From the NCBI RefSeq assembly GCF_900188255.1, contig NZ_FZNS01000001.1, positions 372,001 through 436,000 of the forward strand: 64,000 bases of DNA. The letters are read 5' to 3'. The DNA is from Hymenobacter mucosus (lineage in GTDB: Bacteria > Bacteroidota > Bacteroidia > Cytophagales > Hymenobacteraceae). Below are positions 25,526-29,971 of this stretch, piece by piece; the first letter of the stretch is position 1, and every line of letters starts with the position of its first letter. Under the pieces are notes generated by a model. The model was not told the origin of the DNA and did no database searches. It saw only the letters and a program-made list of their open reading frames with translations. The translations under genes and the position numbers were made by a program.

Positions 25526-26530
25526 TTACAAGCTCAGGATTTGTTTCAGCTCCGCGGCGCTTACGGTAAGCAGCCCTACCTTGGGTAGGCGCTCCGTAAG
25601 GGTACGCCAGTTGGGGTCTTGCTTGAAAATAGGCTGCAAAAGCTTCATGGCCTGGGGCACCTGCTGCTTGTTGGCAAGGCTGATGGCGTGCCAGTACTTC
25701 ATTTCCAGGTTCTGAGGAAAAAGCTTCTCGGCTGCTTCATACTCGCGAATAGCACCGGGCACGTCATTTTTCTCCACGGCTAGGTCGCCAGCGTTCATGT
25801 GCTCGTAGGCGCGGTGCAGACGCAGAAGGCGACTTAGCTCCTTTAATGGGTCGGCGGCATCGTCTACCCGCAGGTCAATTGCACGATCTTCCCAAACGCC
25901 GGCCCCAGGCTTGCCCCGCACAACCAGTAGCGCCGCCGATTGTCGGCCCCGAACGTCGCCGCCAGCAGCCTGGGCCGCATCCAACGCCGACACGACACGC
26001 TCGGCGAAAGGCAGCTTGGCATTTTGCTCGTAGGCGCTGGCCATGGCTGCCGGCACCTTGTTGGTGAGCATCATATTGGCTTGTACCGAGAACTGCGGCC
26101 CTTGCTGATGGCCGGCCATATCAATGCACTTAGCACCGGTGTGGGTAGCCACCCGGCCCTGGTTGTCGATGACGGCTACTTGGCGCACCTCGCGGCTTTC
26201 GTCGGTGCGGAGCAATTCATCCAGCGTTTCTTGGGCCGACTTGCCACTCTTCAGTAGGGCTAAGCCACGAGGACCAAACGACTTGTTGGTGAAGGATTGG
26301 GTAGCAACGGCCCCTACCCCAGCCTCGGCCCAGCTTACGGACGTGCCCACCGAAAACCAATGGCTTTGCACAGCCACGGCCATATCACCAGTTTGGGGGT
26401 CGCGGGCCACAATGGAAAAGGTGTGGGCCAGTGGATCAGTTTGGGTGTATACCTGGGCCGTAGAGGTACGGACGAAGCCCAGCAAAGCAAGAGGTAGCAG
26501 GGCGCGGCGAAGAAGTTGTGGTAACATCAT
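25526..26530 (-). CDS. DUF1028 protein with TPR-like C-terminus
   Basis: 334 residues. Signal peptide (LLPLALLGFVRTSTAQ), then a DUF1028 domain (about 30-220): HTFSIVARDPQTGDMAVAV, VGAVATQSFTNKSFGPRGL and DAAQAAGGDVRGRQSAALL. DUF1028 has an Ntn-hydrolase-like fold and unknown substrate. The C-terminal 100 residues contain two helical repeats of TPR type (GDLAVEKNDVPGAIREYEAA, YWHAISLANKQQVPQAMKLL). ATG 26527 or 26569 are alternative starts. Confidence 0.87.
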   Translation of the reverse strand: MMLPQLLRRALLPLALLGFVRTSTAQVYTQTDPLAHTFSIVARDPQTGDMAVAVQSHWFSVGTSVSWAEAGVGAVATQSFTNKSFGPRGLALLKSGKSAQETLDELLRTDESREVRQVAVIDNQGRVATHTGAKCIDMAGHQQGPQFSVQANMMLTNKVPAAMASAYEQNAKLPFAERVVSALDAAQAAGGDVRGRQSAALLVVRGKPGAGVWEDRAIDLRVDDAADPLKELSRLLRLHRAYEHMNAGDLAVEKNDVPGAIREYEAAEKLFPQNLEMKYWHAISLANKQQVPQAMKLLQPIFKQDPNWRTLTERLPKVGLLTVSAAELKQILSL

Positions 26531-26664
26531 AGCAAGGTTCAGAGCAGCCAAGATACGCAGTGTGCTCAACCCGAAATAGACGCTGCTTTATTTCTCCTGG
26601 TAGGTGAGGCTGCCGCAGATGATGGGTATCTACCTACCTTACCAGTCTGTCAGCCTCTACACCT

Positions 26665-27708
26665 ATGCCTTCTCCTGTTCCGCCCGCCATTGAAGCCCGC
26701 GGCCTCACCAAGCACTACGGCCGTCATACGGTGGTGCAAGACGTATCCTTTACGCTAGCGGCGGGCGAAACGCTGGTATTGCTGGGCCCTAGTGGCTGCG
26801 GCAAAACGACGCTGCTGCGCATGCTTAATCGCCTAGTGGAGCCAGACACTGGGGCGGTGTACATACAGGGCCAAGACGTGCGCAGCCAAGCGGCCCCGGC
26901 GCTGCGCAGGGGCATTGGCTACGTCATCCAGCAAGTAGGCCTCCTGCCCCACTACACGGTAGGCGATAACATTGCCGTAGTGCCGCGTCTCCTGGGCCAT
27001 CCCGCGGCCCAGGTGGCAGCCCGCACCGAGGCTCTACTTGCCCGCCTACACCTGCCTCCGGAGCGCTACGCCGCGCAGTACCCACACCAGCTTTCTGGGG
27101 GGCAACAGCAACGGGTGGGTTTGGCCCGTGCCCTGGCCGCCGACCCACCCATCATCCTGCTCGACGAACCCTTTGGTGCCCTGGACCCCATCACGCGCGC
27201 CAGCGTGCGGCGCGACTTCCGGGAGTTAGAGGAACTGCGTCGCAAAACTGTGGTGCTCGTTACGCACGACGTAACTGAAGCCTTCGAACTAGCCGACCGA
27301 ATCATGCTGCTTGATGCAGGCAAGGTGCAGCAGTTGGGCACGCCCCGGGAGTTGCTCTTCCAACCTGCCAACGACTTCGTACGACAGTTCTTTGAAGCCG
27401 AGCAACTTGCCTTACAGCTCCGCACCCTGCAGGTATGTGACGTAATGGCAGACGCGGTTTTTAATCATGAATCACTATCCATACCAAACTATAAATCAGA
27501 CAGTAACACCATATCACCTATTGCAAGCATTCAAGATGCAATTGCGCTATTGAGCACAGCTGATGCTACCGTTTCGGGTAGTACGGCGCCTGCCTTGGTA
27601 TGGGTAACACCTCTGCCCGAGCAGCCTGAGACTGGTCCTGTTCCTTTCTCTTTACCAACCCTGATGACGGCCTTTGGGCGGACCATTCAACGCCTGCGCA
27701 CCTCCTAA
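26665..27708 (+). CDS. osmoprotectant-type ABC transporter ATP-binding protein
   Basis: 347 residues, the ATPase of a glycine betaine/carnitine/choline-type (OpuC, ProV-like) importer. Walker A GPSGCGKTT (41-49), Q-loop at YVIQQVGLLP, signature LSGGQQQR (143-150), Walker B IILLDEP, His switch TH at 200-201. In OpuCA-type proteins two CBS domains normally follow; here residues 257-347 hold only a degenerate remnant (VCDVMADAVF, then IQDAIALLSTADATV). The stretch coding for residues 266-295 is AT-rich. The fused permease/binding protein starts three bases after the stop. Confidence 0.93.
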   Translation: MPSPVPPAIEARGLTKHYGRHTVVQDVSFTLAAGETLVLLGPSGCGKTTLLRMLNRLVEPDTGAVYIQGQDVRSQAAPALRRGIGYVIQQVGLLPHYTVGDNIAVVPRLLGHPAAQVAARTEALLARLHLPPERYAAQYPHQLSGGQQQRVGLARALAADPPIILLDEPFGALDPITRASVRRDFRELEELRRKTVVLVTHDVTEAFELADRIMLLDAGKVQQLGTPRELLFQPANDFVRQFFEAEQLALQLRTLQVCDVMADAVFNHESLSIPNYKSDSNTISPIASIQDAIALLSTADATVSGSTAPALVWVTPLPEQPETGPVPFSLPTLMTAFGRTIQRLRTS

Positions 27709-27711
27709 ACT

Positions 27712-29268
27712 ATGCTTACCGAACTCTTTACTTTCTGGCAAGCACAGGCCGGCAAATTGGGTGAGCAAACCCTTCAGCACATTGGTCTCACGGCGGCTTC
27801 TCTGCTGCTGGGCGTAGTGATTGGTGTGCCCTTGGGGCTGCTGCTCACGCGGCGGCCGCGGCTGGCACCGTGGGTACTGGGCACCGCGGGCGTCTTCCAA
27901 ACCATTCCTAGTATTGCCTTGCTTGGCTTTCTGATTCCAGTCATCGGCATTGGGTGGAAGCCCGCCATTCTTGCACTGTTTCTGTACTCCCTGCTGCCCA
28001 TTATTCGCAACACGGTGGCGGGCGTGCAGGGCGTAGATGCGGCTGTGGTAGACGCGGCTCGGGGACTAGGTTTTACGGATACACAGGTGCTAACTCAGGT
28101 GGAGCTGCCGCTGGCCTTGCCGGTGCTGCTGGCCGGTATTCGCACGGCGGCCGTTATCAATGTAGGGGTGGCCACCCTGGCCGCCTACATTGCTGCGGGC
28201 GGCCTCGGTGAGTTCATTTTTGGTGGCATTGCGTTGAACAAGCCCGCCATGATTTTAGCCGGAGCCATTCCGGCGGCTGTGTTGGCTTTGCTGTTTGATG
28301 GGGTCCTGGGCTGGCTCGCCCGCAAGCCTACCCGCCAGCTTATGCGTACGGGCCAAGTGTTGCTACTGATGCTCCCGCTCCTAGCAGGGTTGCTGCTCGT
28401 TCCTCGGGCTACCAGCCGACTGCTGGCGGGGTTCAGTCCTGAGTTTGTGGGCCGGGCCGATGGCCTGCCGGGCCTACGCCAGAAGTATGGCCTCAAGCCC
28501 GCCTCCGTGGTGCTGGCCCCGGCGCTGGTGTACGAAGCAGCCCGCCACGGCGACGTAGACGTTATCGACGGGTATTCTACCGACGGCCGCATCCGTGCTT
28601 ACGACTTGCGCGTGCTACACGACGACCAGCGCGCCTTCCCGCCCTACCAGGCCGTACCCGTAGTGCGCCAGCAAGTACTACGCCAGCACCCCGAACTAAC
28701 CGCCGTGCTAGCTCGCCTCAACGGGCAGATTTCCGACTCGGTAATGACCGAATTAAACTACCGCGTCGATTACCGACACGAAACGCCGCGCGCCGTAGCC
28801 CAGGATTTTCTGCGTCAGCGGGGACTCTGGCACGAGCCCCAACCGGTACGGGGCGCTACTATCCGGCTGGGTTCCAAAATCTTTGCCGAGCAATACATTC
28901 TCATTGAGATGTACGCGGCCCTTATTCGTGGCTATACCGATTTGGATGTAGCTACCAAAACTGGCCTGGGCGGCACCAGCATTTGCTTCGAGGCGCTGCG
29001 TAATGGCGACATCGACTTGTATCCAGAATACACAGGCACGGGGTTGCTGGTGATTCTGCAGCCCCCAGCCGCTACCCTCGATTCGGTAGGCAGCGCCTCG
29101 CCGGCCGTGCTGGGCTACGTGCGTCAGGAGTTTCGCAGGCGCTACGGCTTGGAGTGGCTGGCTCCTATTGGCTTCAACAATACTTACGCCCTCCTGATGC
29201 GCCGCCAACAGGCCCAGCAGCTTGGTATTGCTTCTATTACCGAACTGGGCGCCTTTCTGCGGCACTAA
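27712..29268 (+). CDS. osmoprotectant-type ABC permease fused to binding protein, permuted
   Basis: 518 residues. Residues 1-205 are an OpuCB-like permease with about five membrane helices and the EAA-type loop DAARGLGFTDTQVLTQVELP. Helix 214-231 then anchors the substrate-binding part. In OpuCC-type binding proteins the order is a lobe beginning IKIG..., with a GDID and YTGTGL motif, then NNTYA, then a lobe with DGYPGL, STDGRIKAYDL and LNYQVD. Here the second half comes first (237-373: ADGLPGL, STDGRIRAYDL, DDQRAFPPY, MTELNYRVD) and the first half last (383-518: IRLGSKIFAEQYI, GDIDLYPEYTGTG, IGFNNTYALL). The domain thus appears circularly permuted. Substrate likely betaine-like, not proven. 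Confidence 0.93.
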   Translation: MLTELFTFWQAQAGKLGEQTLQHIGLTAASLLLGVVIGVPLGLLLTRRPRLAPWVLGTAGVFQTIPSIALLGFLIPVIGIGWKPAILALFLYSLLPIIRNTVAGVQGVDAAVVDAARGLGFTDTQVLTQVELPLALPVLLAGIRTAAVINVGVATLAAYIAAGGLGEFIFGGIALNKPAMILAGAIPAAVLALLFDGVLGWLARKPTRQLMRTGQVLLLMLPLLAGLLLVPRATSRLLAGFSPEFVGRADGLPGLRQKYGLKPASVVLAPALVYEAARHGDVDVIDGYSTDGRIRAYDLRVLHDDQRAFPPYQAVPVVRQQVLRQHPELTAVLARLNGQISDSVMTELNYRVDYRHETPRAVAQDFLRQRGLWHEPQPVRGATIRLGSKIFAEQYILIEMYAALIRGYTDLDVATKTGLGGTSICFEALRNGDIDLYPEYTGTGLLVILQPPAATLDSVGSASPAVLGYVRQEFRRRYGLEWLAPIGFNNTYALLMRRQQAQQLGIASITELGAFLRH

Positions 29269-29269
29269 T

Positions 29270-29971
29270 CTACCACCTGATCAGGCGGTTGTACACGCGC
29301 GCTAGCCAGGGCTGGGGTACCCGCAGGCGGTAGAGCAGGCAGAGGAAAGCAAAAATGCTTTGCAGCCGGAACACCCCATTTTCCAGGTATTTGCGGGCGG
29401 AGGTAACCACTGCCTGCGGCAGCACCCGAAAGGCGCCGTGCCGTCGCAGTCGGGTCACAATTTCCTGATCTTCCAGCAGCAGCAACTCTTCCCGGAAGCC
29501 TCCCGCTTGCAAAAACACCTCCCGGCGGGTAAACAAGCTTTGGTCGCCGAACCGGAAGGCATCCACATCGAAGCGCGTAAACCAAGCATTGGCCCGCAGA
29601 AACCAGTGGGGATGATCGAAGCGCAAGCGGAAGCAGCCGCTACCGGCCCCAGTGGCTAGGGCTTGCCTGATGGCGGGTAGAAAGTTGGCTGGGGGGTAGG
29701 TATCGGCGTGCAGGAAGTACAGAATGTGCCCCTGGGCGGCAGCGGCGCCAGCATTTAACTGCGCGGCACGCCCCTTCTGGTTCAGCACCAGCACGCGGCC
29801 CCCTGCCTGCCGGGCTACCTCGGCGGTTGCATCAGGGCTGTTCGCATCAACTACCAGCAGTTCTACCCCTCCAGCTGGGCCCGCACTGGCACTCAAATAG
29901 CGGAGCAAAGCCCCAATACCAGCGGCCTCCTTGTAGGTGGGAATAATAATACTGACTAGTTCCGGCGGCAT
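29270..29971 (-). CDS. TIGR04283-type glycosyltransferase family 2
   Basis: 233 residues, GT-A fold. Nucleotide-sugar and metal site: SIIIPTYKEAAGIGALL, VVDANSPDAT, then QKGRAAQLNAGAAAAQG and FLHADTYPP. The acceptor end FRFGDQSLFTRREVFLQAGG, LLEDQEIVTRL and the terminal RKYLENGVFRLQ match the TIGR04283 group (arsenosugar/rSAM-selenodomain-associated transferases). No radical SAM or TIGR04282 partner is adjacent. It is convergent with the ABC fusion gene, one base between stops. Confidence 0.9.
   Translation of the reverse strand: MPPELVSIIIPTYKEAAGIGALLRYLSASAGPAGGVELLVVDANSPDATAEVARQAGGRVLVLNQKGRAAQLNAGAAAAQGHILYFLHADTYPPANFLPAIRQALATGAGSGCFRLRFDHPHWFLRANAWFTRFDVDAFRFGDQSLFTRREVFLQAGGFREELLLLEDQEIVTRLRRHGAFRVLPQAVVTSARKYLENGVFRLQSIFAFLCLLYRLRVPQPWLARVYNRLIRW

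Follow-up and report, generated by a model that had tools for sequence, protein, structure and literature searches.

A circularly permuted binding domain fused to the permease of a predicted ABC importer in Hymenobacter mucosus

Results

The window analyzed in this study, a stretch of 64,000 nucleotides from Hymenobacter mucosus (contig NZ_FZNS01000001.1, positions 372,001 to 436,000), contains a gene (27712..29268, + strand; coordinates are those of the window) encoding a 518-residue fusion of an ATP-binding cassette (ABC) permease and an OpuAC-family (PF04069) binding domain. The fusion very probably consists of a permease and a circularly permuted binding domain of subcluster F-III, which would form one Venus-flytrap unit for a betaine-type ligand and be tethered to the membrane through lobe D2 instead of lobe D1. 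The canonical N-terminal half of the binding domain was designated A, the canonical C-terminal half B, and the transmembrane permease domain TMD; the open reading frame (ORF) and its profile matches gave the order TMD-B-A.

Order of the two halves

Against PF04069, the fusion ORF scored 203.1 bits (cut-off, 21.2) in two stretches, the better of which placed residues 238-369 on profile positions 116-257. At the DNA level, the upstream piece corresponded to profile positions 116-257 (E 8.9e-35) and the downstream piece to positions 1-110 (E 2.1e-23), both in one open frame. The best-scoring sequence match in the PDB was the F-III protein EgtUC (190 bits); phmmer aligned residues 386-512 to EgtUC 10-132 and residues 234-373 to EgtUC 136-275 (9egi). 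The B half, residues 232-373 (28405..28830, + strand), is followed by a linker, residues 374-382 (28831..28857, + strand), that joins the old C- and N-termini, and by the A half, residues 383-518 (28858..29265, + strand); both halves were delimited by the PF04069 and EgtUC alignments. Each half is complete and present once, the two are swapped and connected by a new linker, and the cut lies in a loop, as in a circular permutant. Compared with EgtUC, OpuCC, and Archaeoglobus fulgidus ProX, the binding domain is by its sequence genuinely circularly permuted, which the survey of relatives and the confident single-domain model described below also support. An earlier sequence-only reading had put the second half before the first at 28420..29265; the profile matches, the separate alignment of each half with EgtUC, and the single open frame bear this out, and these coordinates do correspond to the start of residue 237 and the end of residue 518.

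Distribution of the permuted fusion

Relatives were classified with hidden Markov models (HMMs) of TMD, A, and B built from the listed protein relatives. TMD-B-A was found in 80 of 80 loci from named genomes (L032-L111) and in nine of nine further loci (L118-L126), which rules out chance and assembly error and agrees with the earlier claim of a true rearrangement rather than a misread. Misassembly, a frameshift, or a fusion of pseudogene fragments, for which only the surprise of the order speaks, has hardly any chance of being the explanation: it is refuted by the recurrence of the order in all the named-genome loci and in many other contigs, and the frame is open with invariant ligand residues. 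The whole set comprised 316 TMD-B-A, 120 TMD-A-B, 17 A-B-TMD, and 3 TMD-TMD-B-A ORFs; the 316, many of them from Hymenobacter, correspond to 300 distinct spans (the window gene appears as P0001, L001, and L002). The gap between their B and A matches was 9-16 residues, with a median of 11.

Of 198 Bacteroidota genomes drawn evenly (the Hymenobacter genome was one of them), 43 matched PF04069. The loci retrieved from this draw showed TMD-B-A in 10 genomes and A-B-TMD in 16 others, with none in both sets; the rest of the matched genomes, where matches were weak or stand-alone, were left unclassified. A PF04069 match was also found in 62 of 99 relatives. When the binding-domain part of a distant member (L022) was used as the query, 5722 matches were obtained, and the best 120 of them were 108 TMD-B-A fusions, 8 A-B-A-B, 3 A-B-A-B-A-B, and 1 B-A-B-A-B. 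By the names given in the sources, the 108 include Bacteroidota, Cyanobacteriota, Planctomycetota, and Thermodesulfobacteriota (Fulvivirgaceae, Cyclobacteriaceae, Balneolaceae, Geitlerinema sp. CS-897, Microcoleaceae, Scalinduaceae of the Planctomycetota, and Thermodesulfobacteriota); the presence in other phyla rests on these names, and several sources are metagenome-assembled genomes with unchecked contigs. With a canonical query from a Fusobacteria plasmid (L113), the matches listed comprised P0105, P0068, and 118 new proteins that were all TMD-A-B. The case named as refuting the earlier reading, that homologues all show the B-A order, was borne out for every classified member of the clade but not for the sister fusions, since A-B is kept in A-B-TMD, found in the same phylum, and in TMD-A-B, found in Fusobacteriota and Bacillota.

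Several other arrangements were observed. The A-B-TMD fusions (L006-L021 and L112), which come from Bacteroidota and a Gemmatirosa plasmid, start with the binding domain and lack the sixth transmembrane helix (TM6) described below. In P0068, P0077, and P0105, two different permease domains precede one permuted binding domain, and such a transporter would have one binding domain per permease pair. In the tandem binding proteins (P0134, P0141, P0163, and eight of the A-B-A-B type, P0180 among them), the OpuAC domain is present twice or three times and no permease was matched. P0180 (Chloroflexota by source name) has almost identical copies, which suggests a recent duplication.

Cut site, lobes, and membrane tether

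In seven A-B examples, the canonical junction consists of ISDL or a variant, a few residues, and then a strand such as LRxGF. In five permuted examples, the chain ends a few residues past SISDL or SITEL, and B starts at LLAGF or FTAGF soon after TM6; the Hymenobacter chain ends at the cut, six residues past its SITEL motif. By these motifs, the cut is in the short lobe-D2 loop between the SIxDL helix and the LxxGF strand, and no residues seem to be missing there.

The lobe limits given for EgtUC (D1, 233-331 and 445-506; D2, 341-432; PMC9732360) were transferred through the phmmer alignment, with the EgtUC number taken as the chain number + 229, from K242. On the + strand, the first part of lobe D2 maps to residues 231-301 (28402..28614; E244, R248, and Y288), hinge 1 to residues 302-313 (28615..28650; Y312; EgtUC 433-444), lobe D1 in one piece to residues 314-482 (28651..29157; K389, Y440, and T443), hinge 2 to residues 483-491 (29158..29184; N490; EgtUC 332-340), and the second part of lobe D2, with Y492 and the new C-terminus, to residues 492-518 (29185..29265). 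In this mapping, lobe D1 is continuous and lobe D2 is split, the reverse of the canonical state. The suggestion that both hinge strands had been moved to new ends does not hold, as both mapped hinges are internal and it is lobe D2 that is cut.

The permease domain occupies residues 1-205 (27712..28326, + strand), with PF00528 (BPD_transp_1) at 38-205, and VIA-align matched it to the OpuA and MetI permeases. It is followed by TM6, residues 207-229 (28330..28398, + strand), recognized as a model helix and a hydrophobic 17-mer. Residues 214-231 had been described as an extra helix, a description that we rejected: the segment is the usual TM6, and a hydrophobic 17-mer between TMD and binding domain is present in 119 of 120 canonical TMD-A-B ORFs as well as in 311 of 315 TMD-B-A ORFs (315 instead of 316, as the segment of one ORF was too short). 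EgtUBC is likewise predicted to have six transmembrane helices in residues 1-230 (PMC9732360). TM6 should return the chain to the outside. In the 17 A-B-TMD fusions, the chain stops at a median of 11 residues beyond the TMD, and this short tail, together with the position of TM6 between the TMD and a following binding domain, fits a permease that needs the additional helix only if the binding domain follows. In the AlphaFold model, the membrane tether consists of the eight residues between helix 207-229 and strand 238-241; it would enter lobe D2, not lobe D1 as in unpermuted fusions.

Predicted structure

The structure prediction proposed with the sequence-only reading was made with AlphaFold, which modeled the binding domain as one unit with a mean predicted local distance difference test score (pLDDT) of 93.4; an earlier model from a single sequence (mean pLDDT, 41.3) was not used. 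Foldseek matched EgtUC half-wise, with 44% identity over the matched half. The whole model domain matched a single chain of the permuted Bacillus subtilis OpuAC in Foldseek and VIA-align, at 14% identity. The VIA-align listing had no EgtUC row, which by the tool's own note is no evidence of a different fold. The model indicates that the two halves likely fold into one intact Venus-flytrap domain.

In this type of importer, the working permease is expected to be a dimer that bears two binding domains. It is therefore geometrically conceivable that the A half of one chain complements the B half of the other across the homodimer, giving domain-swapped sites. We consider such swapping highly improbable, given the confident single-chain model, the steady length of the B-A linker, and the match of the whole domain to one chain of B. 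subtilis OpuAC.

Ligand site

The residues of the F-III cage, as named in PMC9732360, are contributed by both halves. Seven of the nine (K389, Y440, T443, N490, R248, E244, and Y312) were identical in 97 of 97 sequences; Y492 was found in 80 and Y288 in 54 of the 97. The domain has the features of the Type II substrate-binding protein subcluster F-III, namely an aromatic Tyr cage, a base Asn, and the carboxylate-binding Lys, Thr, and Arg, but does not share the A-B order of the solved F-III members. The EgtU determinants of ergothioneine binding, F293 and G244, are replaced by Y440 (97/97) and F391 (96/97). Instead of ergothioneine, the domain is predicted to bind a carboxylated quaternary ammonium compound, for example glycine betaine.

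Phylogeny and origin of the permutation

From 424 candidate rows (287 TMD-B-A, 120 TMD-A-B, and 17 A-B-TMD; L032-L061 had been excluded beforehand), 41 were retained after identity thinning, and rows with fewer than 380 aligned residues were dropped. TMD, A, and B were aligned in a common order; the stand-alone A-B proteins L115-L117 were classified but kept outside the tree. All 12 TMD-B-A rows fell on one side of a branch (support, 96/95) with one label change. A-B-TMD also required one label change, with weak support (81/15), and TMD-A-B required two. In the tree of the binding domain only, TMD-B-A was supported at 97/93, and A-B-TMD and TMD-A-B required two changes each. As far as the sequences tell, the permutation is carried by one clade of TMD-B-A fusions. 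Because the other groups are A-B, a single change from A-B to B-A is the simplest reading.

The opposite polarity, in which B-A is ancestral and EgtU, OpuCC, and ProX have a derived A-B order, could draw on the distant Trp-cage relative B. subtilis OpuAC, which is also B-A. We regard it as improbable: the other classified F-III groups (TMD-A-B, A-B-TMD, and the stand-alone L115-L117) are all A-B, TMD-B-A forms a single clade, and B. subtilis OpuAC matches the A-B OpuAC of Lactococcus lactis far better, at 237 bits, than it does F-III chains, at about 17 bits. The change from A-B to B-A may have begun with a TMD-A-B ancestor whose binding domain was duplicated in tandem, after which the leading A and the trailing B were lost; tandem binding proteins such as P0180 show that the PF04069 domain does duplicate. 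The long matches in the search for intermediates were three TMD-TMD-B-A fusions and, among the matches listed, stand-alone tandems (8 A-B-A-B, 3 A-B-A-B-A-B, and 1 B-A-B-A-B).

Several observations weigh against this account of a single permuted clade of betaine-type importers. The tree of the permease only gave the TMD-B-A clade weak support (53/77), the permease adding little. No fused intermediate (TMD-A-B-A or TMD-A-B-A-B) was found among the best 120 matches of each of three protein searches. Six Foldseek rows aligned EgtUC in order over 327-337 columns, but at 7.7-9.3 Å. The missing F293/G244 pair speaks against ergothioneine but names no ligand. Locus L058 had no ATPase match in its 3 kb upstream. 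On the other side, 77 of 80 TMD-B-A loci had an ATPase match upstream, on the same strand (L075 and L093, the other two loci without a match, cover less than 1 kb upstream); this, the invariant site, and the broad clade argue for a working importer.

Comparison with known systems and meaning of the tether

EgtUBC of Streptococcus pneumoniae (OpuF-type) resembles the Hymenobacter system in having a permease with six predicted transmembrane helices fused to a Tyr-cage F-III domain and a separate ATPase gene, but its halves are in the order A-B and its tether enters lobe D1 instead of D2. The Hymenobacter unit shares with EgtU the TMD-binding-domain fusion and the partner ATPase, but not Phe293 and Gly244. 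The Bacteroidota A-B-TMD fusions (for example, L017 and L008) combine the same domain families in one chain in the same phylum, but have the binding domain first, in canonical order, and no TM6.

B. subtilis OpuAC (PDB 2b4l/2b4m) is B-A like the Hymenobacter domain and is cut in the equivalent loop (SIEDL / NKTI), whereas its solved chain has no permease, its identity to the Hymenobacter domain is 14%, and its cage, as described in PMC9732360, is based on Trp instead of Tyr. Its residues 1-148 align to L. lactis OpuAC 107-255 and 156-256 to 3-102. B. subtilis OpuAC is far closer to the A-B L. lactis OpuAC than to F-III chains, which are the nearest to the window protein, so parsimony calls for at least two changes of order. 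The PDB sequence searches did not have 2b4l among the matches listed; L. lactis OpuAC (3l6g) was matched through its B half (E 1.2e-4). A study using CPSARST in 2008, the only paper on the subject that we found, had described circular permutation among the glycine-betaine binding proteins 2b4l, 1r9l, and 1sw1 (PMC2395249). The permutation is thus already known in the wider OpuAC family, and the permuted, permease-fused Tyr-cage F-III clade joins B. subtilis OpuAC as a second case of this cut; in the open-access literature, we found no description of an F-III domain that is both permuted and fused to a permease.

The binding domain of L. lactis OpuA (7ahd/7ahh) is A-B by sequence (A, 320-421; B, 426-575). 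A B-A order for this protein, drawn from its end-to-end Foldseek and VIA alignment, was rejected since A precedes B in the sequence; the VIA match covered 382 residues at 4.1 Å, with no split given between permease and binding domain. In Treponema, the binding protein TpMglB-2 of a putative ABC importer is likewise reported to be circularly permuted (PMC4990184), but it has a Type I sugar-binding fold and another cut; its authors too raised a link to membrane anchoring (PMC4990184).

Under the usual transport scheme, the closed, liganded domain would dock on the permease dimer, and ATP would drive import. The shift of the tether from D1 to D2 should spare the docking surface and alter which lobe sits over the tethered protomer. 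The permutation could be adaptive, in that the D2 anchor alters docking and either dedicates the tethered domain to its own protomer or speeds reloading. The equivalent cut in the OpuAC class and the spread of the permuted clade over several source-named phyla favor this, but we find it rather unlikely: TMD-A-B fusions work with the anchor on D1, as reported for EgtU (PMC9732360), and the tether change is therefore not required. A wider proposal, somewhat likelier but still less probable than not, is that the same lobe-D2 loop was opened at least twice, in the Trp-cage OpuAC line and in the Tyr-cage fusion clade, flipping the anchored lobe, so that permutation would be a recurrent switch of tether position that alters docking. 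TMD-A-B, TMD-B-A, and A-B-TMD fusions coexist and differ in the anchored lobe, providing a natural experiment on the roles of tether and attachment point in docking and transfer. Generic names such as "ABC transporter permease/substrate-binding protein" conceal the permutation of this large clade.

The two-gene unit and its surroundings

The fusion gene lies three bases downstream of a gene for a ProV/OpuCA-like ABC ATPase of 347 residues (26665..27708, + strand; ORF and profile matches), with which it forms a two-gene unit. A profile search of the Hymenobacter genome gave no PF04069 match outside the fusion gene, and the unit therefore has no separate binding protein from this family. No Pfam CBS match was found in the ATPase tail (residues 267-347; 27463-27705), whereas the L. 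lactis OpuA ATPase has tandem CBS domains (PMC2861598); osmotic gating through CBS would be missing in the Hymenobacter unit. The ATPase beside the canonical Fusobacteria fusion (L113) had a CBS match in two stretches. The ORFs flanking the Hymenobacter unit (25526-26569 and 29270-29971) are both on the − strand, opposite to it.
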